In this document: piece after piece, positions 17,894 to 36,808 of the stretch
Position numbering within the stretch: the first letter of the stretch is position 1
Layout: each line of letters starts with the position of its first letter
Virus record (IMG/VR): IMGVR_UViG_3300025646_000105
Location: 1-40,850 of that record
Strand: one strand, 5' to 3'
Length of the DNA stretch: 40,850 bases
Source: a virus
The notes under the pieces: generated by a model
What the model saw: only the letters and a program-made list of their open reading frames with translations
What the model was told of the DNA's origin: nothing
The model's database searches: none
Made by a program: the position numbers and the translations under genes

Positions 17894-18139
17894 TTAGTCT
17901 ATGCTAAAGCCAACCTTCTCCAAGATGGCAAAGATCTCGTCGGCATGACGCTTCCGTGGCATCCAGTCACCAGTAAACCATTTGTAAATGGTCATGCGGC
18001 TCACCTTCAGGTGCACAGAAACGTCATTGACGGGGATCTCTCTAGAGATGCAGTACCGCCCCAGCACAACGCCGGGGTTGTCGGTACTCGCCTCTAAATT
18101 AGCCTTGATGATCCTTGATGTATAACCTCGGTTGTCCAT
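17894..18139 (-). CDS. small helix-turn-helix DNA-binding protein
   Basis: The 81-residue protein contains YCISREIPVNDVSVHLKVSRMTIYKWFTGDWMPR, a clear helix-turn-helix with recognition helix VSRMTIYKWF, of the Cro/XRE-like kind often found beside phage replication genes. Its start lies two bases after the stop of the probable ssDNA-binding protein, so it is expressed with it. It could regulate the leftward operon, or help load replication proteins. It is one candidate for the protein that binds the repeated 27-bp dyads. Confidence 0.8.
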   Translation of the reverse strand: MDNRGYTSRIIKANLEASTDNPGVVLGRYCISREIPVNDVSVHLKVSRMTIYKWFTGDWMPRKRHADEIFAILEKVGFSID

Positions 18140-23938: not shown

Positions 23939-24607
23939 TCAGTCCTTTCCTAAAAATTCTACAATTTTTTTCGCACGCCCCGGCTGGCGCATAAGTCTCA
24001 TGGCTTTTGCTTCGACTTGTCTAATTCGTTCTCTGGTGACTTTAAAAATAGCAGCCACTTGTTCCAATGTTAGTTCGGAGCCACCCCCAATCCCATAACG
24101 CAAACGCAATACTTTTGCATGCCGAAGAGGTAAAGAATCTAGATTCTCTGCGATACACTTTACTAACTCTTTTTTAGTTTGCTTTTGCTCCAGAGTCTCA
24201 TCATCCTCGTATAAATCGCCTTCTAATTGGGCAACGTTGCCGCCAAGAACAGATCGCATGGCGTTTGCATCCAACAAAAACCTTTTGGTAACTACACTTT
24301 CGGTACTGTTTCTAGGTAGGTTCATGGTTAACTGCTCGGTCGTCCACAAGTCATGCGGGGCGGCACCTAGTGCTTCCATGACATCTTTGGCTAAAGGGCT
24401 AAACGTTCCGTCCTTGTTAACTGGCGGTTTGCGTAGGGAAACTAAACTACTTATCTCTTGGGCAGTGTAACCAATAGCCTTTGCAAAACTTGCGGCTGAT
24501 TTGTACCCAGCATCTTCGATTGCAGTCAGTAGTAAATTATTGCGTACGGTGAATTTAACTCGGTACGCCTGAGCATCGTCAGAATCTCTAGCGTCAACAA
24601 TCTCCAT
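23939..24607 (-). CDS. sigma-factor-like protein: N-terminal XRE-like HTH, C-terminal sigma region 4
   Basis: I start at ATG 24607 because GGAG lies six bases before it; an upstream in-frame ATG at 24631 lies inside the polymerase gene. The 222-residue protein has a Cro/XRE-like helix-turn-helix in its first third (SAASFAKAIGYTAQEISSLV). The C-terminal part is a textbook sigma70 region 4 (LDSLPLRHAKVLRLRYGIGG, LTLEQVAAIFKVTRERIRQV, EAKAMRLMRQPGR). Regions 1 and 2, needed for -10 recognition and melting, are not seen. It could join the host RNA polymerase through region 4 and redirect it to phage promoters, or act as an appropriator. It overlaps the polymerase gene by 14 bases. Confidence 0.85.
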   Translation of the reverse strand: MEIVDARDSDDAQAYRVKFTVRNNLLLTAIEDAGYKSAASFAKAIGYTAQEISSLVSLRKPPVNKDGTFSPLAKDVMEALGAAPHDLWTTEQLTMNLPRNSTESVVTKRFLLDANAMRSVLGGNVAQLEGDLYEDDETLEQKQTKKELVKCIAENLDSLPLRHAKVLRLRYGIGGGSELTLEQVAAIFKVTRERIRQVEAKAMRLMRQPGRAKKIVEFLGKD

Positions 24608-26420
24608 AACTATCTCCGTATCCAACTTCACAATTCAACGGAAGCGTCTCGGCCCACTTCGGTCTCCAACGCATGCACTCTTCAACATACTTAACTGCTT
24701 CTTCTCTTTCTTCGATGGGGGCGATACACGCAATCGCATCATGCACCGTCAAGACCACTCGGTAGCGTTTAGCCACACGGAGCATCTGCTCACCAATCAC
24801 ACAACGGGCAACTGCTTGGCAGATGTTCTCCACAACTTTCCCGCCGTATATCCGAGTGACACCTTTCCTAGTGTCGTAGATGTACTGGGGGGTGCCGTCA
24901 TAAAACTTCTCGCCGGTCTCACGCAGATTCAGATACCGAATCGGCATGCCGCTTGGGATGTCGAACCCAACTCCGGGTAACAGACTCACCGCTTGTGGCT
25001 GTGCGCAGAAGTCAAATGTCTTGAGTTCCGTAGACGCAAGGGCTTCCAAACATCGGCTAGCAGAATCCCAAAGTCCTGGGATGTAGGGGAAGTTTTCTCT
25101 GTATCGTCTAATAATGAATTGGGATGTCGACTCTTCCATGTGCACACCAACCGACCGCATGTGCAACATAAACTTCTTGTGCCCTAAGCCATACCCGCAT
25201 CCTAATACTACGGTCTTGCCTAAGAAGCGTTCTTCCGTAGTAATGTCGTCGACTGGCTTGCCGTAGATTCTAGAGGCCATGATCTTATAAACGTCCTCGC
25301 CAGCCTCGAATGCTAGGACCAAATCTTTTTGCCCTGCCAGCCAAGCAAGAGTCCTAGCCTCGATCTGAGAAGAGTCAGCGTCAATAATCACGTAGCCCTT
25401 GGGTGGGATGATTGACTTCTTGAGCATGCCAGCGTTCTGCCCACGTGACGGGAGGTTCTGTAGGTTTAACTTGTCGTCGCCACCCCAACGCCCGGTGTGT
25501 GCCGCGTAGTAACGCAGAGGGACCGGAAGGCTACCCCGTTTCGCTATTGAGATTAATCTCTCGGTGCGTGTCTCTTCGAGCGTACTTTTTGTCCCAAGCC
25601 TAGCCGCCGCAAGAGCCTGTACTTTCTCGTCACGGTGCTCAAGGAGAGCCTTGAACCCGTCATCACTCTTTGCCAACGCCGGGGCCAACTTGCCTGTGGT
25701 TGGACTTATCTTTACGGGGACATCAACGCCCATGCTCTCAAGCAACTGCGCAAACTTGGGCTGAGACATTAGGACTTCTTTATCCACCCCGGCGCTGGAG
25801 AGCAATGCTTCCTTCCGGGCCTTAACTTCTTCTAGGTGCTGCTCAAGTAGTGGGAGGTTCAACTGCAAGACCGGGTCGGTGAACATCCGCATCGTCAGAT
25901 CAATGAGCTTGAGTTCCTTCTTGTTGTAACTCTCTTTTAGGATATTAAAAAGCTTGTAGGTGATGTCGACGTCGTTACGGCAGTACTCCCCGTACTGATG
26001 CAGTTCTTCAGCAGTGAAGTCGGCTTTATGCTTGCCCATCGCTAGGACCACCTCGGTCCCTTTTTTGCCTACCCCGTAACGATCCGCGAGTTTTGCGAGG
26101 CTGTTGCCCACTTCTGAACCGTCCACCGCCCGAGCCATACACAGCGTATCAAGGTACACATTAGGCTTGATTCCGTATCTCCAACTGAGAATCGCACCAT
26201 CGAACATCATGTTGTGCGCTAGCACAAAGGAATTCTCCCAATCGAATTGGGCTAGGAATTTATCTACCTCGTTGGCGCACCAAACTGCTTCGCCGTCATC
26301 AACTTTAACTGCTACCCCGATCACTTCGAACCGATCATCACGCACATACTCTTCCGTTGTCATCTTCGAAAGAGAAAACTCTCTGTCGTAATAGGTTTCG
26401 AAATCAAGCGTAATCAGCAT
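24594..26420 (-). CDS. polA: family A DNA polymerase with DnaQ-like 3'-5' exonuclease
   Basis: Start placed at ATG 26420 (MLITLDFETYYD), after GGGGGAG and overlapping the VRR-NUC stop in TGATG; a longer frame upstream is not needed. The 608-residue protein begins with a proofreading exonuclease: D6-F-E8, HNMMFD with D74, and YCRNDVD with D150. The polymerase domain follows: motif A IIDADSSQIEAR (D347), motif B from R398 to G413 with K402, and motif C LTVHDAI (H560-D561). It is the replicative polymerase. The lesser length compared with PolI reflects the lack of a 5' nuclease. Confidence 0.95.
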   Translation of the reverse strand: MLITLDFETYYDREFSLSKMTTEEYVRDDRFEVIGVAVKVDDGEAVWCANEVDKFLAQFDWENSFVLAHNMMFDGAILSWRYGIKPNVYLDTLCMARAVDGSEVGNSLAKLADRYGVGKKGTEVVLAMGKHKADFTAEELHQYGEYCRNDVDITYKLFNILKESYNKKELKLIDLTMRMFTDPVLQLNLPLLEQHLEEVKARKEALLSSAGVDKEVLMSQPKFAQLLESMGVDVPVKISPTTGKLAPALAKSDDGFKALLEHRDEKVQALAAARLGTKSTLEETRTERLISIAKRGSLPVPLRYYAAHTGRWGGDDKLNLQNLPSRGQNAGMLKKSIIPPKGYVIIDADSSQIEARTLAWLAGQKDLVLAFEAGEDVYKIMASRIYGKPVDDITTEERFLGKTVVLGCGYGLGHKKFMLHMRSVGVHMEESTSQFIIRRYRENFPYIPGLWDSASRCLEALASTELKTFDFCAQPQAVSLLPGVGFDIPSGMPIRYLNLRETGEKFYDGTPQYIYDTRKGVTRIYGGKVVENICQAVARCVIGEQMLRVAKRYRVVLTVHDAIACIAPIEEREEAVKYVEECMRWRPKWAETLPLNCEVGYGDSYGDC

Positions 26421-26765: not shown

Positions 26766-26794
26766 AGTATAGGTGTAAGTTTTCAGGAATGCAA
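26766..26794 (-). promoter_or_regulatory. putative promoter upstream of VRR-NUC/polymerase
   Basis: On the minus strand TATACT (26766-26771) sits 17 bases after TTGCAT (26789-26794). The -10 box is good and the -35 box weak. It lies just beyond the terminator at 26807-26844, where a fresh start of transcription is needed, and about 30 bases before the GTG start of VRR-NUC. Confidence 0.5.
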
Positions 26795-26806: not shown

Positions 26807-26844
26807 AAAAAAAGGGACATGGTGACTATTCGTCAGCATGTCCC
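26807..26844 (-). terminator. rho-independent terminator containing dyad copy 1
   Basis: GGGACATG (26814-26821) and CATGTCCC (26837-26844) form an eight-pair stem, extended by TGAC/GTCA inside. On the minus strand a run of seven Ts follows (26807-26813). It separates the MoxR/VWA half from the polymerase half of the leftward genes. Its core (26816-26842) is also a copy of the 27-bp dyad, the only copy that carries a T tract. Confidence 0.8.
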
Positions 26845-26898
26845 TAACCCTCGACCAAGAAAAGCAACGGGGTTGAGCCCCCCGTCAGGGCTTGCTAC

Positions 26899-27774
26899 TT
26901 AGCAAAGCGTAACTGTATCACCTCCGACCAAGTAATACAAAGTGGCTTCCGGATCTCTTTCGATATCACTCTTGAACATCACGCCAACATTCTCAACTGG
27001 TTGGCTAGGTTCGCACAACTTAATGAGTGCTAACTTCTCTTGAAAGTTTTGCGGCATATCGTATGTCGAATTCAACTTAACTATCTCGGGATCATCGGCA
27101 CTAATTTGTGCGTACCACATTGTCCCGTCAGAAAAGTTTACGACGACAGCGCCACCCTTATCGACTTCTTTGTTAATTGAGCAGGCAATCCTGAGATCAT
27201 AGAAGTTTTGGACCTTCTCCTCGGTAGAAAACAATTTCGCAATGGTGCCTTCGATCTTGGGTTGACTACCTTCGTAGCAATCAAGTAAGAACATAGCGAT
27301 CTCGGTACCCGTTTTGTTTGTGTCTATATCTCGGAGTACCTTGTATCTAGCGTTCGACACCATGTTACCGATTTGACTCTTTGCCTCAGCGATCATTTTG
27401 CTTTTGAAAGCACCAGTGACGGGCACCAAGAACACTTCTTCCATCACCTTGATTGCTTTGTGGGCATCCTTGGTCGTGATAGTGCTTCGGTTGTGCCCCC
27501 TGCGCTTGTTGATGTTGTCCGAACTGATATGGTAGACATCCATCACCCCACGCCCACGGTATTCCTCTCGCTTGAGTCTTACCCTACCCAAGTACTGAGA
27601 GTCTTGATACACAGATAGAGTCCCGATGAATTCAGTATCGTATTTCCAACCATCTTTGTCGGCAACGAACTTCACTTGGGGGTGTAGTACATAGTAGTTG
27701 CTGATCAAATCCTCCAACGGTTTGGGTAGCGTCAGTTTTTGGGACATACGGTTTTCAAAGTTAGGCAATGCCAT
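26899..27774 (-). CDS. phage protein of unknown function downstream of MoxR/VWA module
   Basis: The 291-residue protein has mixed alpha/beta character: QKLTLPKPLEDLISNYYVLH, IGTLSVYQDSQYLGRVRLKR, and a C-terminal VNFSDGTMWYAQISADDPEI. No catalytic motif, membrane segment or signal peptide is visible. It follows the DUF3150-like gene by 14 bases and is the last gene before a terminator. Co-transcription suggests a role with the AAA+/VWA module, but this is inference. Confidence 0.65.
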   Translation of the reverse strand: MALPNFENRMSQKLTLPKPLEDLISNYYVLHPQVKFVADKDGWKYDTEFIGTLSVYQDSQYLGRVRLKREEYRGRGVMDVYHISSDNINKRRGHNRSTITTKDAHKAIKVMEEVFLVPVTGAFKSKMIAEAKSQIGNMVSNARYKVLRDIDTNKTGTEIAMFLLDCYEGSQPKIEGTIAKLFSTEEKVQNFYDLRIACSINKEVDKGGAVVVNFSDGTMWYAQISADDPEIVKLNSTYDMPQNFQEKLALIKLCEPSQPVENVGVMFKSDIERDPEATLYYLVGGDTVTLC

Positions 27775-27788
27775 CTTGTGTTCCTTTC

Positions 27789-28649
27789 TTACCAGTTAAA
27801 TTTCGAGAGGATGTCGTCGACTTTGTTCTTGGTCTGCAACCGTATCTCGTCGCTTTCCTTGAGCATCTCGGTATCCACAAGCAATAGCGCAGATGAGAGA
27901 TCACGCTTGGCTTGATCCAGTTTGGCATCCTTGGTGATGTTGAGATGATTGAGTAGATCTACCAACTCTTTAGCGTTTCCTAGCATCGTATCGTGGAAAC
28001 CCTTACGCTTACCCTCCTCGTCGTTGGCTAGGCGATCACTCATGTGACTGAGGCATTTGTGCAGTCGCTCCCAAACATCACGCATGGCTCCCTCGATACG
28101 CTCATTGAAGTTAGCCTCGTACTGCTGAATCAACTCGGCTTTGGCTTGCTCGTTGATGTCGATGCGGAAATCCCCCGCAGTCGGCACAGGTGTGAACGCA
28201 TAGGCAAAGCGGAACTTGCCCATGATGTTGTCCACATCGGGGTACTCCTCACGATTAAACATGTCTCCCAGAGAGAAAGCCGCCGCTGATATCAGAGTAG
28301 GATACTCAACGAAAAACTTTTGGCACAGTCGGTTGAACTCCATCTCATGCGCATTCAACTCGGCTTTGTAGTCCAAGAACTGAGACATCGTCACCAGTCG
28401 TGTGCCCTTGTCAGACCACGGCAAAGTTTTCTGCGTATTCCACAGGCGAACCCGAGCGGCATACTTGTTCACATCTTCAAGGCTCTTGCTACCGGCAAGT
28501 AGGTTCTTGTGGTAATTGCCACCCCGCGCTCTAGTTTTCTTGACCGCATCCACTTCCTCGGACACTTGCTTGTCCAACTTACGGGCAGTCCAGCATGAGA
28601 CATTCAACTCGACAAGCATGGCACTTGTTGCGATTCCAATGGTTTCCAT
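27789..28649 (-). CDS. DUF3150-like protein of the MoxR/VWA module
   Basis: I start at the eleventh codon of the longest frame (METIGIATSAMLVELNVS), where AGGAAAACCAAATG gives a ribosome site. The 286-residue protein has LVELNVSCWTARKLDKQVSE and GNYHKNLLAGSKSLEDVNKY, which match my memory of DUF3150 proteins that travel with MoxR ATPases and VWA proteins. The rest is helical (WERLHKCLSHMSDRLANDEE). It is probably a substrate adaptor or partner of the ATPase. A copy of the 27-bp dyad lies in its leader at 28675-28701. Confidence 0.7.
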   Translation of the reverse strand: METIGIATSAMLVELNVSCWTARKLDKQVSEEVDAVKKTRARGGNYHKNLLAGSKSLEDVNKYAARVRLWNTQKTLPWSDKGTRLVTMSQFLDYKAELNAHEMEFNRLCQKFFVEYPTLISAAAFSLGDMFNREEYPDVDNIMGKFRFAYAFTPVPTAGDFRIDINEQAKAELIQQYEANFNERIEGAMRDVWERLHKCLSHMSDRLANDEEGKRKGFHDTMLGNAKELVDLLNHLNITKDAKLDQAKRDLSSALLLVDTEMLKESDEIRLQTKNKVDDILSKFNW

Positions 28650-28674
28650 TTGGTTTTCCTTTCTTAGTATCAGG

Positions 28675-28701
28675 GACAAGATGACTATTGGTCACTTTGT
28701 C
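28675..28701. promoter_or_regulatory. 27-bp dyad, copy 2
   Basis: GACA, 3 nt, TGACT, 3 nt, GGTCA, 3 nt, TGTC, perfectly spaced. It overlaps the stop codon of the RHH-like gene and lies 26 bases before the DUF3150-like start. No T tract on either side, so it is not a simple terminator. Confidence 0.7.
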
Positions 28702-28864
28702 GTGTCTTGTACTGCTTGATCAAATACTCGATCACTTGGGTAAACGAAAGGTTTATCCCGAGTCGGTCCACCAACTCGTTCTTGATGTCGAGCAACTCGT
28801 GGGCTGTTTCTTTGCTAATGCTCACACCCACGCGACCGTCTTTACTTGCGACTTTAGTTTCCAT
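28685..28864 (-). CDS. small ribbon-helix-helix-like protein
   Basis: A 59-residue frame directly abuts the VWA stop (TAAATG), with GGAG shortly upstream. It reads METKVASKDGRVGVSISKET, then AHELLDIKNELVDRLGINLS and FTQVIEYLIKQYKTR. A short strand followed by two helices is the ribbon-helix-helix plan of Arc/MetJ-type repressors. These bind as dimers to palindromic operators, which makes this protein an attractive candidate for the repeated dyads, one copy of which covers its own stop codon. Confidence 0.7.
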   Translation of the reverse strand: METKVASKDGRVGVSISKETAHELLDIKNELVDRLGINLSFTQVIEYLIKQYKTRQSDQ

Positions 28865-30142
28865 TTAGATCTCCACTAGAGCAGATTGACCAATAAGAGG
28901 AACGAACCTCTTGTTATTAACAACACACCAAAACACAGGAACTCCCATATTCTCCCACAACTCTACCTTGTGACGATAGAAGTACCCGTCAGTCAGCATG
29001 ACCACGCATTGCGGCTCCAACTTGTTCTTCATCACAAACCTCGGAACGCAGTCGGGATCAGTACCACCACCGCCTTTGGGCTTGGTCGAATTGATTACTG
29101 TTGCTACCTCGGAACCATAGTAGATTTCATGGCTCGCTACCTCGGTATCCCAATAAAGAACCTCCACGCGCTCAGGCATGATCTCTTCGCAGATGTTCGC
29201 CATCTCACCCAAGAACTGCCCAAGCACCGGCCCACCAATCGAACCCGATGTGTCAATGCCTATCACGATGCACTCTGCCTTTTGTCCTACCATGCTAGGC
29301 ATGATGATGTCGGCCCCGAGGAACCTCCGATTCGGTCTGCGCCAAGTCGTGATCTCGCCACCCTTGGTCGTCACCTTCACAAAGTCTCGCAACGCCTCAC
29401 GCCAATCCACGCGGGGATGCAAGATTTCCTCGATGCCACGGGGCATGTTGCCCTTCATCTTGCCTGCAAGGATTGCACCCTCACGCAAGCCGTGATCAAT
29501 CTCTTGCTCGAGTTTCTCTTTCTCCTCGTCTGATAACTCAGCGGCACCATCCCAGTCATGCTCATCCATCGAGTCGTTGGGTTGGTTGCCACCATTGGGC
29601 TTTGATTGCTTGCCGGGACTTGATGACCCTCCGTCATTTTGTCCCTCACCTTGCCCATCTCCGGGTTGGCCTTCCTCGCCTTGTTCACCCTGCTCGTCTT
29701 TGAGGATGTCGTAGACTTGCTTGGTGTCCATGTTGCGGAACCGCTCGTCGAGTAGCCCGATCTGATTGCCGTCTTGATCTCTTGGCATCACAACCACAAA
29801 ACCGTCTGGGTCCATGTCGTGAATCTGAAGATTGATCACATAGTCAGCCGCCATGTTGGTCAGCCGCATGTTCTCTTTCGCCAGTTTCTTCCATGTCGAG
29901 ATATGCCGATACGCCTTGTGCATTGCCTCGTGTACTACCAAGAAAGCAAGCATCTTGTCGTCAAGCATCTCCACGAACTCGCGCCCGTAGTCGACATCGC
30001 GCCCATTTGTTCTTGCGGTAATCGGCTCGTCAAGCACAGTTACTTTGCCGATCATGAACATCCCGCTAAATAAGCAGAAGTCCTTGTGCCGCATGAGCGT
30101 CACATGTGTGCGCTCGATTCTTTGTTCAGCAGTTAGTTTCAT
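28865..30142 (-). CDS. VWA-domain protein with N-terminal metallopeptidase-like domain (DUF2201-like)
   Basis: The 425-residue protein has an N-terminal domain with HEAMHKAYRH (HExxH at 71-75), as in DUF2201_N. A Gly/Gln/Asp-rich linker spans about residues 150-195. The C-terminal von Willebrand A domain has a complete metal-ion-dependent adhesion site: D297-T-S299-G-S301, T361-D362 (GGGGTD) and D385 (LTDGYF). VWA proteins pair with MoxR AAA+ ATPases to remodel or load cofactors onto targets. Here a MoxR gene lies 200 bases upstream in the same operon. The target is unknown. Confidence 0.85.
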   Translation of the reverse strand: MKLTAEQRIERTHVTLMRHKDFCLFSGMFMIGKVTVLDEPITARTNGRDVDYGREFVEMLDDKMLAFLVVHEAMHKAYRHISTWKKLAKENMRLTNMAADYVINLQIHDMDPDGFVVVMPRDQDGNQIGLLDERFRNMDTKQVYDILKDEQGEQGEEGQPGDGQGEGQNDGGSSSPGKQSKPNGGNQPNDSMDEHDWDGAAELSDEEKEKLEQEIDHGLREGAILAGKMKGNMPRGIEEILHPRVDWREALRDFVKVTTKGGEITTWRRPNRRFLGADIIMPSMVGQKAECIVIGIDTSGSIGGPVLGQFLGEMANICEEIMPERVEVLYWDTEVASHEIYYGSEVATVINSTKPKGGGGTDPDCVPRFVMKNKLEPQCVVMLTDGYFYRHKVELWENMGVPVFWCVVNNKRFVPLIGQSALVEI

Positions 30143-30333
30143 TTGAAAACCTCCTTGTGCAGTTTTGTGTACTCGTCTTGCAACTCAACTATCCAATCTT
30201 GGAGAATGTCTAGACCAACGACATCTCGCGGGATTGTTGAGAGCAAAAAAACCTGTCCTTCTTCCTTGTCTATGCGATATCTCAGTACCCCATGCACACG
30301 AAAGTTCTGCGGGTGTCTATAAGTAAATTTCAT
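30139..30333 (-). CDS. small protein between MoxR and VWA genes
   Basis: A 64-residue protein (MKFTYRHPQNFRVHGVLRYR, then IDKEEGQVFLLSTIPRDVVG) with mixed strands and a C-terminal helix (QDWIVELQDEYTKLHKEV). It overlaps the VWA start by four bases and follows MoxR by eight, so it is part of the module. No family recognised. Confidence 0.65.
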   Translation of the reverse strand: MKFTYRHPQNFRVHGVLRYRIDKEEGQVFLLSTIPRDVVGLDILQDWIVELQDEYTKLHKEVFK

Positions 30334-30341
30334 ACCGCCTC

Positions 30342-31403
30342 CTAGAACAAGTATTGGTTCTCACGCATCCAATTCACAAACGAACCGGATGTCATCATGA
30401 TCTGCTTCTTCTCGGGGTGCTTACCAGCAGTCAAGCAAAACACAGACTGCAACTCTTTCGGTGTGCGCTTGAGATACTCGAACCATTTGCCGATGTTGCC
30501 CCGGTCCACTCGTTGAACTGCGCCGTAAGCCATGATGCACAGCGCCGCCGGTGAAGTCGGCACAATCGCCGTTTGTGGATTGGTAATCACATCTTCCCAA
30601 AGCGGTAGTGTGTCTGCTACTTCGACATAGGCAGTCATATCTCTCGCCGCCGCATCGCCAATCGTTCCGCTCAACGCAGTCACCAACGCATTGCGTGTCA
30701 TCAGGCTACGCTTCTTGATGATGTTGCTTGCGCGGTGGCCCGAGCGCGGAGAGAAGTATGACCGTTTCGGGTTCTTCGGGTTGAAGTTGTACGGATTGTC
30801 TGCTTGCGCAGGATCCTTGTACGATGCCATGCAATGCGGATAAGCCTTGACCCATGCCATGACCTCGGGCGCAACCCCATTCAACGCCGCCCACTCTAGC
30901 CATTCCTCAGCCGTTGGGTTGGCAATCGGGCAGATGGTCAGCCGGTTGATCGAGTGGTCCTTCAACAAATCGCCCACGCCATCCGTCGTATTGTTACCAG
31001 CAGTAATGACGATGGAATCTTTGTGCAGTTTGAACCCGCCGATCCTTCTCTCTGATAGCAGAGGATGGAGCATGTTCTGTACCGCAGGTGATGATGGTTT
31101 GGTGAACTCGTCAATGAAGATCACGCATGGGTCGCCATGTTGGAAACCCCACGCTTCGTTCGGATACAACGCCGTCGTGCGAGTCTCATGGTTGGGCATG
31201 GGGATGCCGATGTCGCCCAACTCGGTGTTGGGGGTGTCGATATAGATGCCACGATAGCCCGTCTTTTCCACGATACGCTCGTACATAGCAGTCTTACCAA
31301 CGCCGGGCTGTCCGACAAGATGGGTAGCGACTTCGTTTCCAACACTAAGGATGAACTCCTCGGCTTCTTTGAGGGTCATTTCTGTGCGCAGGTTAACTTC
31401 CAT
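30342..31403 (-). CDS. MoxR-type AAA+ ATPase
   Basis: The 353-residue protein has Walker A GQPGVGKT at 31-38, Walker B CVIFIDEF with D98/E99, and the sensor-1-like ITAGNNTTDGVGD near 133-145. PNTELGDIGIP after the first strand and the overall length fit the MoxR group of AAA+ chaperones. MoxR proteins act with VWA partners to insert cofactors or remodel complexes. In the same operon lie the VWA, DUF3150-like and RHH-like genes. The start follows AAAGGAAATACCAA. Confidence 0.9.
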   Translation of the reverse strand: MEVNLRTEMTLKEAEEFILSVGNEVATHLVGQPGVGKTAMYERIVEKTGYRGIYIDTPNTELGDIGIPMPNHETRTTALYPNEAWGFQHGDPCVIFIDEFTKPSSPAVQNMLHPLLSERRIGGFKLHKDSIVITAGNNTTDGVGDLLKDHSINRLTICPIANPTAEEWLEWAALNGVAPEVMAWVKAYPHCMASYKDPAQADNPYNFNPKNPKRSYFSPRSGHRASNIIKKRSLMTRNALVTALSGTIGDAAARDMTAYVEVADTLPLWEDVITNPQTAIVPTSPAALCIMAYGAVQRVDRGNIGKWFEYLKRTPKELQSVFCLTAGKHPEKKQIMMTSGSFVNWMRENQYLF

Positions 31404-31442
31404 TTGGTATTTCCTTTCTTAGTAGAGAGACAGAGAACAAAA

Positions 31443-32402
31443 TTAAAAAGACAACGACAGGTAGTGCTTGTTGGAATCGTGTACTCCGCGATCCCGTGGT
31501 AATACTTCCTTCTTATTGAATACTTCGCTAGCAAAGCGGTACTTGATCAACTCGTAGAAGTGATGCTTGGCATCCTCAAACTTAGCGATCCGCATACCAG
31601 CGTAGTTAGCAGGCTTCTCCATCAGTACAGAGCAGAGCATCTTGTTGGCAAGGTGGTAAAACCGCTTGAGTTTCTCCCCCTCGTCAAGTGTTAACGCTTC
31701 GTTTAGCAGATCAAAGAAGATCAACATGCTATCGGCAACTCTGCGCTCGGTTCTTACTGCACTCTTGAGTGATGGCATGTAATAGACCCGATTCAACTCA
31801 GAAACAAAGAACTCTTCCAAGTCATCCGTGTTGGGGTTCACTTCGACATACTGATTGATTGTCAGCATGTCGCGGATGAAGATCACGAACGATGCGTACT
31901 TCTCCCGCATTGCTTTCATCGCATCAAAGTCAATGCTGTGTTGGCATTCGATTTCATACCCACGGATTGCACCATCAGCGGATATTTCCACATAGCCACG
32001 ATTAGGCATGCGATAGAAAGTACCCTTGTAAACTGCATAGATCTTCCCTTTCTCCCTCTGAAAGTGGAGGGCGTCGGTCTTGCTGGTCTCGTTCAGCACA
32101 CAGGTGGTCGAGATCGACGGGTATCCACAAATGCTGAACTCCCTGCGCCCATCGGGATGCAGTCGGACCACATGGTTGTTGTAGTAGGAAAAAACAATCT
32201 CGCTCCCATAACGCTTGTGTATGAGGGATCGCGTGTACCTACGCTTCGCACCAAGTGGACGAAAGCCTAATTCTTCCCCTTTCGAATACGGGCGAACGCT
32301 CTCGTAGTGATCGTGTGCCATTGCGTAAGTAGGCAGATGCGGTAAACCTTCGGGCATCCATTGCCCCTGCGGATAACTGCTGTGTTGTGTGTAATAACCC
32401 AT
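31443..32402 (-). CDS. phage protein of unknown function upstream of MoxR
   Basis: Start moved to ATG 32402 (MGYYTQHSSYPQ), preceded by GGGAGAGTGAC, giving 319 residues. The N-terminal part is basic and aromatic (GFRPLGAKRRYTRSLIHKRY), the middle has strands (VVRLHPDGRREFSICGYPSI), and the C-terminal half is helical (FFDLLNEALTLDEGEKLKRF). No enzyme motif is visible. It is encoded just upstream of the MoxR gene, with a 39-base gap, and may belong functionally to that module. Confidence 0.65.
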   Translation of the reverse strand: MGYYTQHSSYPQGQWMPEGLPHLPTYAMAHDHYESVRPYSKGEELGFRPLGAKRRYTRSLIHKRYGSEIVFSYYNNHVVRLHPDGRREFSICGYPSISTTCVLNETSKTDALHFQREKGKIYAVYKGTFYRMPNRGYVEISADGAIRGYEIECQHSIDFDAMKAMREKYASFVIFIRDMLTINQYVEVNPNTDDLEEFFVSELNRVYYMPSLKSAVRTERRVADSMLIFFDLLNEALTLDEGEKLKRFYHLANKMLCSVLMEKPANYAGMRIAKFEDAKHHFYELIKYRFASEVFNKKEVLPRDRGVHDSNKHYLSLSF

Positions 32403-32403
32403 G

Positions 32404-32538
32404 TCACTCTCCCAGTATAAGAACCAAAACCAACAACACATAGAACATCGTGAAACCAATGATGCCCAAGGCCCATGTTGCTAGGTTGTCACGCACGCTC
32501 AGACTGCGATCCCAAAACAACTCTTTGATCCAATTCAT
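32404..32538 (-). CDS. 44-residue single-pass membrane protein
   Basis: The frame reads MNWIKELFWDRSLSVRDNLA and then a hydrophobic span WALGIIGFTMFYVLLVLVLI. GGGAG lies upstream of ATG, and the stop nearly touches the next start. One membrane span with a short N-terminal cytoplasmic part. Small membrane proteins like this in early operons often act on host functions; a specific role cannot be given. Confidence 0.6.
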   Translation of the reverse strand: MNWIKELFWDRSLSVRDNLATWALGIIGFTMFYVLLVLVLILGE

Positions 32539-32539
32539 T

Positions 32540-32728
32540 TCACGGTCTCCCGCTTGAATCAACCCACCCCATACCGACATAGTCGGATGGGTCCTCGTAC
32601 TCCTCTTCTTGGCTCACCTCCTTGTCGTCCTTTGCGGCAGACTCATAGGCGGCATTCAACTTGTTCACTTCTTGCATGAACTTGGCTAGTTCATCCTCGG
32701 TCATGTTGTCTCGGTATTTCATGCTCAT
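32540..32728 (-). CDS. small acidic protein
   Basis: Start at ATG 32728 (MSMKYRDNMTEDELAKFMQE), with AGGAG seven bases before, rather than the longer upstream frame that overlaps the neighbour. The 62-residue protein is helical then acidic (SAAKDDKEVSQEEEYEDPSD) and ends GMGWVDSSGRP. Its start shares TGATG with the upstream stop. Acidic small proteins made early can mimic DNA, but nothing here proves that. Confidence 0.6.
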   Translation of the reverse strand: MSMKYRDNMTEDELAKFMQEVNKLNAAYESAAKDDKEVSQEEEYEDPSDYVGMGWVDSSGRP

Positions 32729-32937
32729 CACACATCTCCTTTGATAAGAATTGGTTGATTCATAAACGCTTCCCTCTGTAGATACGACGGGTCGAACCCG
32801 TAGCACCCAGCCGATATGCTTATGTGTTTGTTAATAAACTCCCTAGTGAATTGGTCGCACGGCATGAGACCTACTGCTTTGTGCCCTGCCGTTGTCGTTA
32901 CTGCCGTAGTCCACCTCAACTTCAATTGCTTTCTCAT
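32728..32937 (-). CDS. small phage protein of unknown function
   Basis: Start at ATG 32937 (MRKQLKLRWTTAVTTTAGHK), which overlaps the DUF6915-like stop as ATGA and follows AGGA; the longer frame upstream is not supported. The 69-residue protein includes CDQFTREFINKHISISAGCYGFDPSYLQREAF. No family recognised. Tightly coupled on both sides. Confidence 0.6.
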   Translation of the reverse strand: MRKQLKLRWTTAVTTTAGHKAVGLMPCDQFTREFINKHISISAGCYGFDPSYLQREAFMNQPILIKGDV

Positions 32938-33305
32938 TTCACTTCCTCCTCGACATGCTGATCGTTGGTCATTTTGTCCACTTTGTACCCTCGGTTCATC
33001 CACACTTCCATCTTGATGTTCTTGAACCAATCGGCAACCGTGGGTATGCGACCCCCACAATCTTCTTTGACATGCTGTTCGCCGATATACCGAACGGGTA
33101 CAGTCCGTCCATCGCTGTTTGTTATCGTGCTACCGAACACCCGCTCACACTCAAAGATGCCTTGCGAATGGTGTCTGAGCGCACGATGTCTCGCGTCCGC
33201 GAACACTTCCTTGGTCGCGTCGAACCAGTCGTGGATGGGCTGATAGTCCTCGGGCTTGCCGCCCCAAATTTTGACGCTTGTGAGCGCGTGATGGTGCGGG
33301 TGCAT
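32934..33305 (-). CDS. DUF6915-like phage protein
   Basis: The 123-residue protein begins MHPHHHALTSVKIWGGKPED and contains HDWFDATKEVFADARHRALRHHSQGIFECERVFG and RYIGEQHVKEDCGGRIPTVADWF. I recognise this His-rich pattern as the DUF6915 family of phage and bacterial proteins, function unknown. The clustered histidines could bind metal. Copy 3 of the 27-bp dyad lies inside its last codons. Confidence 0.75.
   Translation of the reverse strand: MHPHHHALTSVKIWGGKPEDYQPIHDWFDATKEVFADARHRALRHHSQGIFECERVFGSTITNSDGRTVPVRYIGEQHVKEDCGGRIPTVADWFKNIKMEVWMNRGYKVDKMTNDQHVEEEVK
32952..32978. promoter_or_regulatory. 27-bp dyad, copy 3 (inside a coding end)
   Basis: GACA, 3 nt, TGATC, 3 nt, GGTCA, 3 nt, TGTC, with the same spacing as the other copies. 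It lies within the C-terminal codons of the DUF6915-like gene and just before the next gene's start, so the signal is kept even where it must also encode protein. Confidence 0.65.
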
Positions 33306-33793
33306 TATTTGCCCTCCTCAGAAGTGACCGTTTCCTCATCTTCTTCGTCAGCGTCCGTGTAGTCGAACTCATGCGCGTCGGTCTCCATTCGGTTGATCTC
33401 CACATGCAGCATTACAGTCGGCGGGGTTTTGGTCAGGTCGATGGTCAAGGTGCCTTGGCCCCCCTCGTTGTTGTACCAGTCGAACCCCTCATGCTCTAGC
33501 AGGCTCTCGGTGACATCCCGCAGGATCTCGCTTAACTCCATGGGCATCTCTTTGGTTTTAGTGACCCACTTCCCCGTCTCATGGTCGAACTCGTCGCTGG
33601 TCTTGGCCCAGTCAAAGGTGATGCCGTCCATGCTGATCTCGTTCTCAAAAGCATCGTAGAGAGTGCCTCTCTCGACTTCGCCCGAGTCCCCACCGCCTTG
33701 GAAGTTGACGATGACCCGATGCCCACCAAGAACCTTGAGCATGTTGAAGAACAACTCTTTTTGTTCCCTAGTATCAAAATATAGGCTTGCCAT
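33305..33793 (-). CDS. DUF6878-like phage protein
   Basis: The 162-residue protein has VIVNFQGGGDSGEVE near residue 28 and EGFDWYNNEGGQGTLTIDLT near 105, a pair of motifs I associate with the DUF6878 family in phages. The C terminus is strongly acidic (EFDYTDADEEDEETVTSEEGK). No catalytic residues are established. Its stop overlaps the next start as TAATG, and a 27-bp dyad lies in its leader. Confidence 0.7.
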   Translation of the reverse strand: MASLYFDTREQKELFFNMLKVLGGHRVIVNFQGGGDSGEVERGTLYDAFENEISMDGITFDWAKTSDEFDHETGKWVTKTKEMPMELSEILRDVTESLLEHEGFDWYNNEGGQGTLTIDLTKTPPTVMLHVEINRMETDAHEFDYTDADEEDEETVTSEEGK

Positions 33794-33825
33794 TTTGTTT
33801 CCTTTCTACTGATTACGAATACCGG

Positions 33826-33852
33826 GACATCCTGACCGATGGTCACTTTGTC
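33826..33852. promoter_or_regulatory. 27-bp dyad, copy 4 (most symmetric)
   Basis: GACA, 3 nt, TGACC, 3 nt, GGTCA, 3 nt, TGTC, flanked by GG and CC so that outer arms become GGGACA/TGTCCC. It lies in the 71-base gap ahead of the DUF6878-like gene. No T tract follows on the minus strand. Confidence 0.75.
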
Positions 33853-33864
33853 CCCCCCGAACTG

Positions 33865-34083
33865 CTACTGCCTATCCTCACGCTCGATCCAATCGGCATC
33901 GACAACGCTTGGGTAGAACTCTGCGAAATACTTCTTCTCGTCCATTGACTGCACTTGGACGCGGCCTGTGCTTGCAGGCTTGTGGGGTTTGGTTATCCCC
34001 ATGATGTAATGCGGCACCCCACGGATGTGGGCGATGTCGCCGACTTTTACTTCGACATTGGTTTTTGTATATACAAGTTTCAT
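33865..34083 (-). CDS. small KOW/SH3-like phage protein
   Basis: The 72-residue protein (EVKVGDIAHIRGVPHYIMGI) has the strand-rich look of a small barrel. KPHKPASTGRVQVQSMDEKK and a C-terminal FYPSVVDADWIERED complete it. I know the pattern from early regions of other phages without function. It follows the zinc-ribbon gene by three bases. Confidence 0.7.
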   Translation of the reverse strand: MKLVYTKTNVEVKVGDIAHIRGVPHYIMGITKPHKPASTGRVQVQSMDEKKYFAEFYPSVVDADWIEREDRQ

Positions 34084-34086
34084 GTT

Positions 34087-34314
34087 TCACGCCTCCGTGC
34101 GTTTGGGGTTTATCTGCTTTAGCAGGGAAAAGTCTGTGATGCGGGTATAGCCCATCTTGTTGCTGATGGGGGCGATGCACCAACTCATACGCTCTTGGCG
34201 GGACTGCTCCTCCCCGCACTCAAGGCATACACGCTTGCCGATCTCCCACCGAGCGGGGTCGATCTCGTCGTCGCAAATGCGGCACTTGGGAATAAGGTAC
34301 ATATTCGCGGACAT
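34087..34314 (-). CDS. zinc-ribbon phage protein
   Basis: The 75-residue protein has two CxxC pairs (CRICDDEIDPARWEIGKRVCLECG), a classic zinc ribbon. It ends in MSWCIAPISNKMGYTRITDFSLLKQINPK, a tail seen in small phage proteins of unknown role. It probably binds DNA, RNA or a host protein. Among the first genes made from the leftward promoter. Confidence 0.75.
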   Translation of the reverse strand: MSANMYLIPKCRICDDEIDPARWEIGKRVCLECGEEQSRQERMSWCIAPISNKMGYTRITDFSLLKQINPKRTEA

Positions 34315-34326
34315 AGTGTCGTCTCC

Positions 34327-34605
34327 CTACGCTACTAGGGACCAAAAACATACGGCTGAAGATGCAGGGTCGGGACACAGGTTGGCTCGGAATCCACCGG
34401 GCATGAAGTTGCCGCTTTGGAATTCTTCGCGTACGCCGACTGCCATGCCTTCGATTTGGCTCAGAGATTTGATGAACAGAATGTTCCATTGGAAGTCATG
34501 CGCCGCGATGCTCGGATCGTAGGTGCTGTAATGTTCGAAAACAGGGTCGTAATGTTCCAATTGTTCGAGATTGGATTCGGTTGGGACAGAGTGACTGATG
34601 GTCAT
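34327..34605 (-). CDS. first gene of the leftward early operon, unknown function
   Basis: The 92-residue protein (MTISHSVPTESNLEQLEHYD, HDFQWNILFIKSLSQIEGMA, REEFQSGNFMPGGFRANLCP) has no recognised domain. It is the first gene after the near-consensus promoter, with an AAAGG ribosome site. Its start codon lies inside a copy of the 27-bp dyad, and its coding sequence contains the TAATGTTCGAAAA motif that recurs in the intergenic region beyond. It is therefore likely to be both immediate early and autoregulated (inference). Confidence 0.65.
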   Translation of the reverse strand: MTISHSVPTESNLEQLEHYDPVFEHYSTYDPSIAAHDFQWNILFIKSLSQIEGMAVGVREEFQSGNFMPGGFRANLCPDPASSAVCFWSLVA

Positions 34606-34611
34606 GATGTC
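34585..34611. promoter_or_regulatory. 27-bp dyad, copy 5 (over the first early start codon)
   Basis: GACA, 3 nt, TGACT, 3 nt, GGTCA, 3 nt, TGTC. It covers the start codon (34603-34605) of the first leftward gene, about 60 bases downstream of the promoter -10 box. A bound protein or folded RNA here could block elongation or initiation of translation. Confidence 0.75.
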
Positions 34612-34658
34612 GTGCCTTTCTTGGTTGGTGATGGAAAAGGATGTACTTCAATTTTTTC

Positions 34659-34670
34659 GCCCTAAAGGGC
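34659..34670. promoter_or_regulatory. short palindrome at the leftward transcription start
   Basis: GCCCT, AA, AGGGC. It begins one base past the -10 box of the leftward promoter, so it should cover the transcription start. Suits an operator or a 5' hairpin on the transcript. Confidence 0.5.
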
Positions 34671-34671
34671 T

Positions 34672-34700
34672 ATTATAGCATGGAAACTATACAAAGTCAA
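34672..34700 (-). promoter_or_regulatory. near-consensus early promoter, leftward
   Basis: On the minus strand: TTGACT (34695-34700), a 17-base spacer, and a perfect TATAAT (34672-34677), preceded by an extended TGC. This is the strongest sigma70 promoter in the window and would be used by host RNA polymerase at once after infection. It drives the leftward genes from 34605. Confidence 0.9.
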
Positions 34701-34730
34701 GTGAATGTCGGGTCGCAAAGGGCAAAAACG

Positions 34731-34748
34731 GGGGGTAATGTTCGAAAA
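34731..34748 (+). repeat. 18-bp direct repeat, copy 1
   Basis: GGGGGTAATGTTCGAAAA, identical to 35021-35038. The core TAATGTTCGAAAA also appears at 34529-34541 inside the first leftward gene. This copy lies just upstream of the -35 box of the early promoter. Confidence 0.85.
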
Positions 34749-34791
34749 AGGGTAAAAATTCGTACAATCAAGAACAAAAGGCCCGCTCTGG

Positions 34792-35013
34792 TATTGGTTT
34801 GTACGGAATGTTCTATTGTTCTATAGTTTTATAAGTACATTCTCGTGCGAGGCTGGTGGGTGCGGAGAAACACTTGCAGAGAGCCTCTTGAACAGATTCG
34901 GTTTTGGCACTTTTACCCTCAAAAAGTCCGAACAATAGAACAAATCAATGTTTTCAATGACTTACGAAAGAACAATACAAAGAACAATAGGGGCACTTCC
35001 GTACAAACCAATA
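34792..35013. repeat. long interrupted inverted repeat
   Basis: Left arm: 34792-34808 (TATTGGTTTGTACGGAA) and 34813-34822 (CTATTGTTCT). Right arm: 34981-34990 (AGAACAATAG) and 34997-35013 (TTCCGTACAAACCAATA). Both blocks are perfect reverse complements, with short mismatched bulges between. CCCGC and GCGGG lie symmetrically outside after five bases. The arms enclose about 158 bases with two more GAACAAT motifs. Candidate cruciform, origin or regulatory structure. Confidence 0.85.
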
Positions 35014-35020
35014 ACGACGC

Positions 35021-35038
35021 GGGGGTAATGTTCGAAAA
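35021..35038 (+). repeat. 18-bp direct repeat, copy 2
   Basis: Identical to 34731-34748. It lies just outside the right arm of the long inverted repeat and 19 bases before the 25-bp cassette repeat. Confidence 0.85.
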
Positions 35039-35057
35039 TTTTTTAGGGGGTCAAAGA

Positions 35058-35082
35058 CTACCCCGTTGGAGTGACCGTTCCC
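35058..35082 (+). repeat. 25-bp cassette repeat, copy 1
   Basis: Begins CTACCCCGTTGGA, then G, then TGACCGTTCCC. It matches 35920-35944 at 24 of 25 bases. Each copy stands at the head of a rightward cassette with a paralogous gene, so it probably marks a promoter element, a regulator site or the junction of a duplication. Confidence 0.8.
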
Positions 35083-35089
35083 TCCATGC

Positions 35090-35116
35090 GACATACTGGC
35101 GGTCGGTCATCATGTC
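35090..35116. promoter_or_regulatory. 27-bp dyad, copy 6
   Basis: GACA, 3 nt, TGGCG, 3 nt, GGTCA, 3 nt, TGTC. Outer arms and spacing match the other copies, the left inner arm is degenerate. It lies just after the 25-bp repeat in the leader of the first cassette gene. Confidence 0.6.
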
Positions 35117-35226
35117 TGGCCCGGCTGGTGAAAACTTTTTTATTGCGGCCGTGTTTTTTGGTGGCATTTTGTGGCATAGTGTGAATGGGCATTTTGCCCG
35201 CGATTCTTACTTTGAAAGGAAACACC

Positions 35227-35877
35227 ATGCAACAGAAGCCCGTTGTCTCTGCCGTCATCTCTGCCCTATCAGAGAATCAAACCAACGAAGCCCGCAAGGC
35301 GGGCGCGTTATTCGCTCGATCTGAACTTGAAGCCGATGAGGCTTTTGAGGTTTTCGCCCGTGCCGTGGGCGAAGCCCCGGTCTATGCGGTTTATGAGCAA
35401 GCCCGGATTGAGTGGGTATCGTCCTACACCACTACCAAACCGCATACAAAGGGGAATACCGCTGACAAAGCCTTTGGGAGGTTCGTGGGGCGTTTGCGTG
35501 AAAAGTATCCGCTCGATATTCAGAAGCCGGTCTCTGACAATCCAGCCGCCCGTAAAAAGGCGGCAGAGCGTGAGGCCAAGCGTGCGGGGATTCTCGAAGC
35601 GCATGAGGGTATTGATACTAGCGAACTACGCTCACGGCTTGCCAAGGCGTTTAGTACTCTCGCATCTAACCCGGATTCTAAAGTGGCAGAAGCCGCCGTT
35701 AAGAATCTGAAAGCCGTCATCCGTGAGCGCACTAAAGGCGAGTCTGCCGCGTTGAAAGCCGACCTCACCGCCAAGCGTACAGAGATACGCGGTCTACTCT
35801 CTGGGTGCGATGATATCGAGCGCCTGGACGCGGTGATTGAGATTCTCTCGCCTGAGAATAATGTAAGCATCCAGTAA
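35227..35877 (+). CDS. cassette protein 1, paralogue of the next rightward gene
   Basis: Start chosen at ATG 35227 (MQQKPVVSAVISALSENQTN) with AAAGGAAA upstream, not the ATG 42 bases earlier. The 216-residue protein is highly charged and helical (ARKKAAEREAKRAG, VAEAAVKNLKAVIRERTKG). It shares with the next gene the N-terminal PV-AISA-S pattern, the YEQARIEWVSSYTTTKP / WEAARTDWVNGYTAANP block, and the C-terminal IRGLLSGCDDIERLDAVIEIL / LRQQVRAAASKCTDLEKLQAALDIL block. It has its own upstream repeats and terminator, so it is made as a single unit. Function unknown. Confidence 0.8.
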   Translation: MQQKPVVSAVISALSENQTNEARKAGALFARSELEADEAFEVFARAVGEAPVYAVYEQARIEWVSSYTTTKPHTKGNTADKAFGRFVGRLREKYPLDIQKPVSDNPAARKKAAEREAKRAGILEAHEGIDTSELRSRLAKAFSTLASNPDSKVAEAAVKNLKAVIRERTKGESAALKADLTAKRTEIRGLLSGCDDIERLDAVIEILSPENNVSIQ

Positions 35878-35892
35878 CTAAGCCGACCCAGA

Positions 35893-35917
35893 CCCCCGGA
35901 TTTTTCCGGGGGTTTTT
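35893..35917 (+). terminator. rho-independent terminator of cassette 1
   Basis: CCCCCGG (35893-35899) and CCGGGGG (35906-35912) with a six-base loop, then five Ts. It ends cassette 1 directly before the second 25-bp repeat. Confidence 0.9.
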
Positions 35918-35919
35918 CC

Positions 35920-35944
35920 CTACCCCGTTGGAATGACCGTTCCC
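35920..35944 (+). repeat. 25-bp cassette repeat, copy 2
   Basis: Same as 35058-35082 except for one A/G change (CTACCCCGTTGGA, A, TGACCGTTCCC). It follows terminator 1 after two bases and heads cassette 2. Confidence 0.8.
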
Positions 35945-35985
35945 AATCTTCCCGACTGGGGACAAGCTGGTCGATCTGGCCCTGG

Positions 35986-36001
35986 TAGCTGGGCCCAGCT
36001 A
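35986..36001. promoter_or_regulatory. 16-bp perfect palindrome in leader of cassette 2
   Basis: TAGCTGGGCCCAGCTA reads the same on both strands. It lies 157 bases before the start of cassette protein 2 and could be an operator. Nothing like it is seen in cassette 1. Confidence 0.5.
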
Positions 36002-36072
36002 ATCCCGACTGCACTGCGGGGTCATACCAGGGAATGTCGCACAACGTGGCTTTTTGTGAGACTATACGTATT

Positions 36073-36099
36073 GACATGTTGGGATTCGCTCAGCATGTC
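36073..36099. promoter_or_regulatory. 27-bp dyad, copy 7
   Basis: GACA, 3 nt, TGGGA, 3 nt, GCTCA, 3 nt, TGTC; outer arms extend to GACATG/CATGTC. Its left end overlaps a perfect TTGACA (36071-36076), though no good -10 box follows at 17 bases. It lies 43 bases before the start of cassette protein 2. Confidence 0.55.
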
Positions 36100-36142: not shown

Positions 36143-36808
36143 ATGAAGAACGCAACACAACAGCAACCAGTCGCAGCAGCCATCTCGGCCATCAGCCAGC
36201 AGCAGCATGAAGCAGCCAGCACCTGTGGATCGCGCTGGGGCAAGAATCGCCAGGAGCGCATCGAGATCGCCACCGACTACTCCCGCATGCTGGGGACCGA
36301 GCCGACGTTCTTGGAGTGGGAAGCAGCCAGGACCGACTGGGTCAACGGGTACACAGCAGCCAACCCTGGCAACACCGGGAACGCAGCCGACGCGGCCTGG
36401 GCCGACTTCAGCAAGCTGCTCAATGACCTGTTCGGCCTGGTCAAGCCCAAGTCGAAGTCGGACGCAGCCGTCAAGAAGGGGAAGGAGCGCAGCGCGAAGG
36501 AGCAGGCCCTGTTCGACAAGTACAAGGACAAGGGCGTCGCTGATCTCCAGGGCATGAGGCGCGCAGCACTCGAGAAGGCCGCAGCCGGGTCTGACCTGGC
36601 TGAGAAGATCGCAGCTGAGATCAAGAAGGTGCTGCGGGTCAAGACCAGGGATCAGGACAAGGCTATCGCCGAGGAGCGCACTGCACTGCGGCAGCAGGTT
36701 CGCGCAGCAGCCAGCAAGTGTACCGACCTCGAGAAGCTCCAGGCCGCGCTCGACATCCTCGACGTGGAGACTGAGCTGAGCTTCATCGACGAAGACATCG
36801 ACGCCTGA
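36143..36808 (+). CDS. cassette protein 2, GC-rich paralogue
   Basis: Start at ATG 36143 (MKNATQQQPVAAAISAISQQ) with AAGGAG six bases before; the long frame upstream has no ribosome site. The 221-residue protein is Ala/Lys-rich and helical and shares three sequence blocks with cassette protein 1. Third codon positions are almost all G or C (GCC, CAG, AAG, CTG), unlike every other gene here, which suggests recent arrival from a GC-rich phage or host. The high GC content also creates a long spurious minus-strand frame. Ends EDIDA in an acidic tail. Function unknown. Confidence 0.8.
   Translation: MKNATQQQPVAAAISAISQQQHEAASTCGSRWGKNRQERIEIATDYSRMLGTEPTFLEWEAARTDWVNGYTAANPGNTGNAADAAWADFSKLLNDLFGLVKPKSKSDAAVKKGKERSAKEQALFDKYKDKGVADLQGMRRAALEKAAAGSDLAEKIAAEIKKVLRVKTRDQDKAIAEERTALRQQVRAAASKCTDLEKLQAALDILDVETELSFIDEDIDA

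Follow-up and report, generated by a model that had tools for sequence, protein, structure and literature searches.

The window analyzed here is the IMG/VR virus record IMGVR_UViG_3300025646_000105 itself, that is, the whole stretch of 40,850 bases, and the element in question is a 27-bp dyad that occurs there at nine sites, all of them inside 26.8–36.1 kb, where a leftward early operon adjoins two rightward paralogous genes for a candidate regulator. A preliminary description of this DNA had reported seven such dyads, of which every coordinate and the fixed spacing were reproduced in the window sequence; its total, for its part, fell short by the sites at 31845–31871 and 29617–29643. That description had also placed the site at 26816 in a terminator, which assignment we correct, since the site lies between the terminator-like stem-loop at 26865–26887 and the promoter-like sequence at 26766–26794. 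The features, with mismatches counted against the 16 fixed bases of the family consensus given below, are as follows:

26766–26794 (−): promoter-like sequence of the next leftward operon, TTGCAT-N17-TATACT, sigma-70-like; recognized by inspection, the promoter scan not having listed it
26816–26842: dyad copy 1, flanked on one side by the early-operon terminator and on the other by the promoter of the leftward operon that follows; 0/16 mismatches; a boundary site recurrent in most relatives
26865–26887 (−): terminator-like stem-loop closing the early operon, from a sequence scan
28675–28701: dyad copy 2, between the end of the ribbon–helix–helix (RHH) gene and the gene at 27789–28649; 0/16 mismatches; syntenic in relatives
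29617–29643: dyad copy 3, in the linker-coding part of the von Willebrand factor A (VWA)-protein gene at 28865–30142; 1/16 mismatch; counterparts in the same gene in L059, L067, L119, and L040
31845–31871: dyad copy 4, inside the open reading frame (ORF) at 31443–32459; 12-base core exact, 1/16 mismatch
32952–32978: dyad copy 5, within the 3' end of the gene at 32934–33305; 1/16 mismatch
33826–33852: dyad copy 6, intergenic; 0/16 mismatches
34585–34611: dyad copy 7, over the ATG of the ORF at 34327–34605, with the leftward early promoter some 60–90 bp upstream; 0/16 mismatches
34672–34700 (−): leftward early promoter, TTGACT-N17-TATAAT with a TG before the −10 element; 11/12 matches in the scan
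35090–35116: dyad copy 8, 110 bp before the start codon of the gene at 35227–35877; 1/16 mismatch
35227–35877 (+): candidate regulator, paralogue 1, 216 aa, orphan family FEG-A
36073–36099: dyad copy 9, upstream of the gene at 36143–36808; 3/16 mismatches, the inner arms being degenerate; counterpart with an almost identical core in L082
36143–36808 (+): candidate regulator, paralogue 2, 221 aa, FEG-A, predicted to be all-helical

The 12-base core GACA-N3-TG-N9-CA-N3-TGTC occurs exactly eight times in the window versus an expected 0.002 (40850/4^12), and a control with the reversed core pattern gave no match there. The refined consensus, GACA-N3-TGAC-N5-GTCA-N3-TGTC, comprises 16 fixed bases, and in the whole window no further site with two or fewer mismatches to that form was found, so that the restriction of the dyads to one early stretch of 9.3 kb, as described earlier, holds for all nine. 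When we scanned IMG/VR with this symmetrical 16-base form, at least 119 stretches were matched, many of them with four to seven copies per contig; among the matches listed, 150 sites from 33 loci with at least three copies served to build the consensus GACA-W-N-M-TGAC-N5-GTCA-K-N-W-TGTC. In 15 long contigs of uncultured phages, the window included, we counted 97 sites (63, 27, and 7 with zero, one, and two mismatches, respectively) versus an expectation of zero, with three to ten canonical sites per contig. These contigs are not independent samples; still, the result is clearly at odds with matches at random density elsewhere or with unconserved positions in relatives, either of which outcomes the preliminary description had named as counting against its reading.

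The related contigs match the window in gene order, and in all 15 the sites are restricted to the leftward early operon and its ends, the array of the window extending from the leftward promoter and the genes adjoining it down to the operon boundary at 26.8 kb. In different phages the sites occupy either equivalent intergenic gaps or coding sequence for poorly constrained linkers; and 153 of the 211 sites of all types touch noncoding DNA, in regions that are 20% noncoding according to the gene calls of a simple program of our own. To 154 distinct sites of the canonical type (A1), oriented by transcription, we joined their flanks up to 150 bp on each side and found no fixed promoter element near them: beyond the first bases the flanking positions held at most slight information, which result indicates that the sites do not belong to promoters standing at a constant distance from them. 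A promoter-embedded operator and a phage promoter were both set aside on those grounds, and a search of 19 contigs for PF00940, the single-subunit phage RNA polymerase, gave no match, the controls likewise giving none. With a model obtained from other loci, 111 of the 154 A1 sites scored better in the orientation of transcription, a bias that was equaled in none of 500 random flips and that is indicative of a site direction following transcription, albeit as a minor asymmetry and among related sites that are not independent. The earlier reading of the dyads as the operator of a phage regulon is thus supported, in that the array is a conserved, phage-specific DNA feature confined to the early operon. 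In one relative (L093, oriented position 9587 of 12103) a site covers a Shine–Dalgarno-like sequence together with the ATG of a zinc-ribbon-protein gene.

Phages without the canonical dyad, which we collected through DNA-polymerase relatives, carried other repeated dyads in the corresponding region. We refer to the two-part dyads of 25–27 bp as class A and to the 17-bp palindromes centered on a single base (N1) as class B. In addition to A1, the former comprises A2 (GACA-N3-TTAC); A3, the type with the clearest two-part layout, seen in L215 (GACA-N3-TGTC-N5-GACA-N3-TGTC); A4 (GACA-N3-CCGT); the weak A5 (GACA-N3-TTTC); and A6 (ACTTRGCGACA-N3-TGTCGCYAAGT). Palindromes of 17–18 bp are exemplified by ATACTGTC-N-GACAGTAT and TATTAACA-N2-TGTTAATA. 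When contigs were scanned for ten types, each contained its own type only, the exception being G020, with the weak A5; G029 had no dyad of any of the ten. Across types, the genomes held from 4 to 14 sites.

The protein that tracks the operator is encoded by the gene or genes beside the array, and was absent from the earlier list of candidate binders. Its family, FEG-A, was found in all 14 class-A contigs holding the terminase end versus none of the five with other or no dyads, a split that would arise by chance once in 11,628 trials if the contigs were independent, which is not fully so. The family is variable (mean column identity 24%), its alignment lacking conserved stretches; in most class-A contigs an operator ends 9–29 bp before one FEG-A start codon, the corresponding distances in the window being larger, at 43 and 110 bp. 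A search with the protein from an A4 (CCGT) phage led to a 67%-identical relative with an A4 site 36 bp before the gene, and one with the protein from an A6 (CTTRGC) phage led to 91%- and 56%-identical relatives with an A6 array, which array numbers nine sites in the 56% relative; the search with the FEG-A protein of the window returned a single, near-identical relative. In these sequence comparisons, then, the FEG-A protein type predicts the operator type. The AlphaFold2 model of the protein encoded at 36143–36808 was all-helical, with a predicted local-distance difference test (pLDDT) score of 88 and a predicted template-modeling score (pTM) of 0.55.

The surroundings of these genes contain other repeats. 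An element CCCCGTTGGARTGACCGTTCCC lies at 35061–35082 and again at 35923–35944, one copy upstream of each paralogue, with a similar GGTCATTCCAACGCGGTAGCC near the equivalent genes in relatives. The gap at 34740–35040, which separates the leftward promoter from the regulator genes read rightward, holds a GAACAA/TTGTTC cluster with six exact hexamers (34772–34987) as well as a repeated GTAATGTTCGAAAA; these repeats look iteron-like and possibly mark an origin.

In three contigs with 17-bp palindromes, the terminase is adjoined by another orphan family, FEG-B, for which no homology to FEG-A was detected on comparison and whose predicted model is the weaker of the two (pLDDT 76). A protein-only search gave 24 FEG-B loci, some from contigs already in the set; among the 16 that hold at least 1 kb of the early region, 15 contain at least three copies of a 17-bp N1-centered palindrome and the 16th has two, with eight different half-sites represented over the 16. 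Two of the phages, L362 and L368, have about 92% DNA identity across most of the 10 kb compared, and their shared genes are 84–100% identical with the exception of FEG-B, in which the N-terminal part of some 100 residues agrees at 36 of 103 positions versus 56 of the last 60. At every syntenic operator that lends itself to alignment, nearly identical flanks enclose CTATAGTC..GACTATAG (or something close to it) in L362 but CTCAAGTC..GACTTGAG in L368. A third phage, L366, combines an operator almost the same as that of L362 with an FEG-B N-terminal part of the L362 type (84 of 104). A second segment in which L362 and L368 diverge lies downstream, where L366 resembles L368 and not L362, which segment therefore does not follow the operator. 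The natural swap among these three phages constitutes the strongest evidence that the N-terminal domain encoded by the neighboring FEG-B gene would read the operators; and on the whole the operator sites and the protein reading them seem to change together.

We accordingly put forward, at a rough probability of 0.6, that the dyads are an operator array for a regulator encoded early and next to it, which would repress its own gene and roadblock early transcription, the paralogues at 35227–35877 and 36143–36808 being the candidates for that regulator in the window. The regulator would accumulate early in infection and bind the operator before its own gene along with the further copies that recur every 0.5–2.5 kb over the early operon; once bound, it would act mainly as a roadblock to RNA polymerase, thereby limiting its own synthesis and shutting down or insulating the early operon in the manner of a stoperator. 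The 27-bp site appears to consist of a pair of 11-bp half-operators, GACA-N3-TGAC and the mirror image thereof, with 5 bp between them; two dimers or a single tetramer would fit this arrangement, a stoichiometry suggested by the layout. We favor a roadblock because the majority of copies are intergenic or intragenic rather than placed on promoter cores; combined with autorepression, a roadblock would best account for sites that are directional and occur in any context, in gaps as well as inside genes. What the sequences show is the sites themselves, with their confinement, conservation, and bias in orientation, and the match between operator type and neighboring protein; binding, its repressive sign, and the roadblock mechanism are what we infer.

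Several findings weigh against this proposal. Neither FEG family has a recognizable DNA-binding domain: for FEG-A, searches of PDB, BFVD, Pfam, and PHROGs yielded nothing convincing, and a PDB search with FEG-B yielded no match. The swap was seen in class B, not in the class A of the window, and the two families are not detectably homologous; classes A and B may furthermore be separate lineages, in which circumstance the 14/14 versus 0/5 split would in part reflect one historical event. The dyad type B3 (TATTAACA) accompanies neither FEG-A nor FEG-B. The two regulator genes of the window face away from the early operon, an arrangement from which the single-copy relatives differ. Finally, the class-B operator that precedes the regulator gene sits just upstream of the promoter, a position that would suit an activator as well.

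This last consideration leads to the alternatives, which we take in descending order of probability. With array and regulator unchanged, the bound protein might instead activate or protect transcription, through direct activation, anti-termination, or anti-silencing. The class-B operators and that at 26816 in the window, just upstream of sigma-70-like promoters, would fit such a role, as would an array spanning the operon whose expression has to come first. In types A4 and A6, however, the operator preceding the first FEG-A gene is found after the promoter and ahead of the start codon, copy 7 of the window is likewise downstream of its promoter, no promoter element stands at a fixed distance from the sites, and many copies lie within genes or right before start codons. 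We regard this possibility as unlikely.

Unlikely, too, is that the array primarily serves the DNA—in its compaction, tethering, segregation, replication, or the sheltering of the early region—with any effects on transcription being secondary. A block of 8–10 kb tiled roughly evenly, with sites in any context, is what such a function might produce, yet the limits of the array match those of the early operon, both ends included, an operator precedes the regulator's own gene, and the asymmetry of the sites is oriented with transcription. Moreover, a search for a ParA-type ATPase (PF13614 only) found no match in the 19 contigs, which may be incomplete; in that respect the system also differs from parS/ParABS.

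We consider it improbable that the FEG proteins merely travel along with the array while some other protein of phage or host—RHH, helix–turn–helix (HTH), sigma-like, or a host regulator—binds it. The FEG proteins lack a known DNA-binding fold and recognizable DNA binders, of the RHH-like and HTH kinds, are encoded nearby; but the binders proposed in the preliminary description did not follow the operator. The RHH-like protein (28685–28864, −) was present in 6 of the 15 A1 contigs and accompanied class-B arrays too; the sigma-like protein occurred in a single one of the 15, the window itself. For these reasons both were rejected. An 81-aa HTH protein (17894–18139, −) was present in 14 of the 15, and its recognition helix, VSRMT[IV]YKWF, is nearly identical in A1, A4, and A5 phages; being constant while the operator changes, that helix is unlikely to set the specificity, and this candidate was set aside as well. 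Nor would a host factor predict the joint switch of the FEG-B N-terminal domain and all the operators between near-identical phages. As observations in their own right, the small HTH protein at 17894–18139 is nearly ubiquitous in the relatives and its recognition helix hardly varies, and the protein at 23939–24631 has a C-terminal sigma-70 region 4 and a possible HTH-containing N-terminal part, and was not found in the 14 other contigs compared.

The preliminary description had left room for a conserved RNA hairpin, to be checked by covariation. At the spacer positions 5/23 and 6/22, Watson–Crick pairs were rarer than base composition predicts and at 7/21 slightly commoner, and the A1 arms, read on the transcribed-sense strand, gave 930 Watson–Crick pairs, 2 G-U, 20 A-C, and 24 others, so that a paired stem is not kept by compensatory or G-U changes; A2 and A6 are the only types whose arm departures are mainly G-U. 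Because the spacers do not pair and the changes in the A1 arms break pairs, the sites are best read as double-stranded DNA elements. Hairpins on the leftward early transcript, acting in processing, translation control, or anti-termination, are accordingly very improbable: sites in leaders and over start codons, a slight asymmetry along transcription, and the G-U changes of A2 and A6 would suit them, but the unpaired spacers, the 44 of 46 A1 arm departures other than G-U, and the single central base of the class-B palindromes would not.

Among known systems, the closest to the proposed operator array are the stoperators of the Cluster A mycobacteriophages (L5, Bxb1), in which phage-specific sites are matched to each phage's own regulator (PMC9283540, PMC6550527); those of L5 are 13–14 bp long, without dyad symmetry, and are bound at 20–30 sites by an HTH-containing monomer (PMC9283540, PMC6550527). 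The likenesses are many copies of one phage-specific site, mostly in short intergenic gaps and not in promoters; an orientation that follows transcription, here only as the minor asymmetry of the A1 sites; a site sequence that differs by phage and is matched to its own regulator; and a site near that regulator's own promoter. Here, in contrast, the sites are near-palindromes of 17–27 bp, number 4–14 per genome, and are restricted to the early operon, and the FEG proteins are orphan helical proteins with no detectable HTH, whereas the mycobacteriophage repressor has an N-terminal HTH and a stoperator domain. Cluster A phages are temperate, carrying an integrase or parABS, and their stoperators, once bound, halt elongation, with immunity to superinfection as the outcome. 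In the 19 possibly incomplete contigs examined here, neither a tyrosine integrase (PF00589) nor a ParA-type ATPase was matched, serine integrases not having been searched for; a classical prophage role is therefore not supported, though the contigs may lack such genes through incompleteness.

The controller (C) proteins of restriction–modification systems offer a second comparison: C.Kpn2I is a small regulator that roadblocks elongation over its own gene (PMC6237814), and C.Esp1396I exemplifies the controller protein and its C box (PMC3758141). The C boxes resemble our sites in being two-part operators with short half-sites suited to two dimers, as in A3, where GACA-N3-TGTC occurs twice; unlike our system, the C proteins are HTH proteins (XRE) with one operator region and no arrays, and FEG-A matches no C protein and is not XRE, nor were restriction–modification genes seen linked to the sites.

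The operators of lambda CI and Cro are palindromic, are clustered at two promoters, and are read by a phage-encoded regulator whose specificity can be switched between relatives. Palindromic sites, a phage-encoded reader—here a candidate—and specificity switching between relatives are common to both systems, whereas here the sites tile the whole operon, largely off promoters. In the literature on other operator arrays and on this phage group, we found nothing on the present system.

As to the phage group itself, isolated phages furnished only distant relatives of the DNA polymerase and the ATPase, and nothing that matched the zinc-ribbon protein at 34087–34314. A genome scan for a host gave short contigs of metagenome bins, distant relatives, and one relic in a Dehalococcoidia bin: there, L379 (CP070693.1) carries the DNA-polymerase (56% identical) and Hjc-like gene pair of the phage family among bacterial genes, which pair is either a relic or an assembly artefact. 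Within the early operon, conservation is highest for the genes of the VWA-like DUF2201 protein (28865–30142), whose PHROGs label of HNH endonuclease is unsupported by Pfam, and the MoxR-like ATPase (30342–31403). The 2994-aa protein encoded at 5728–14712, in which inspection by eye picked out a GHKL-type ATPase segment along with a metalloprotease motif, HELAH, is probably an injected polyvalent virion protein.

Operator diversification has so far been tied to superinfection immunity in temperate mycobacteriophages (PMC6550527). Tentatively, and as a possibility that falls short of probable, these widespread phages, in which no tyrosine integrase was detected, may possess a self-contained module in which an early-encoded regulator from a new helical family and an operator array matched to it throttle elongation over the early operon and confer an immunity-like exclusion of phages with the same operator, the specificity being rewritten by swapping the N-terminal domain of the regulator together with all the operators, and the module having arisen on two or more occasions from unrelated proteins. 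From an unexplained repeat, sequence alone led to its likely reader in a large phage group without a cultured close relative, and FEG-A and FEG-B, two families of unknown function, emerge as probably binding DNA in a sequence-specific manner. Phages that are nearly identical apart from a single protein domain and all the operators compared offer a ready-made test of how one regulator and its many dispersed sites come to change in concert, and raise the question of why apparently lytic phages should diversify their operators.

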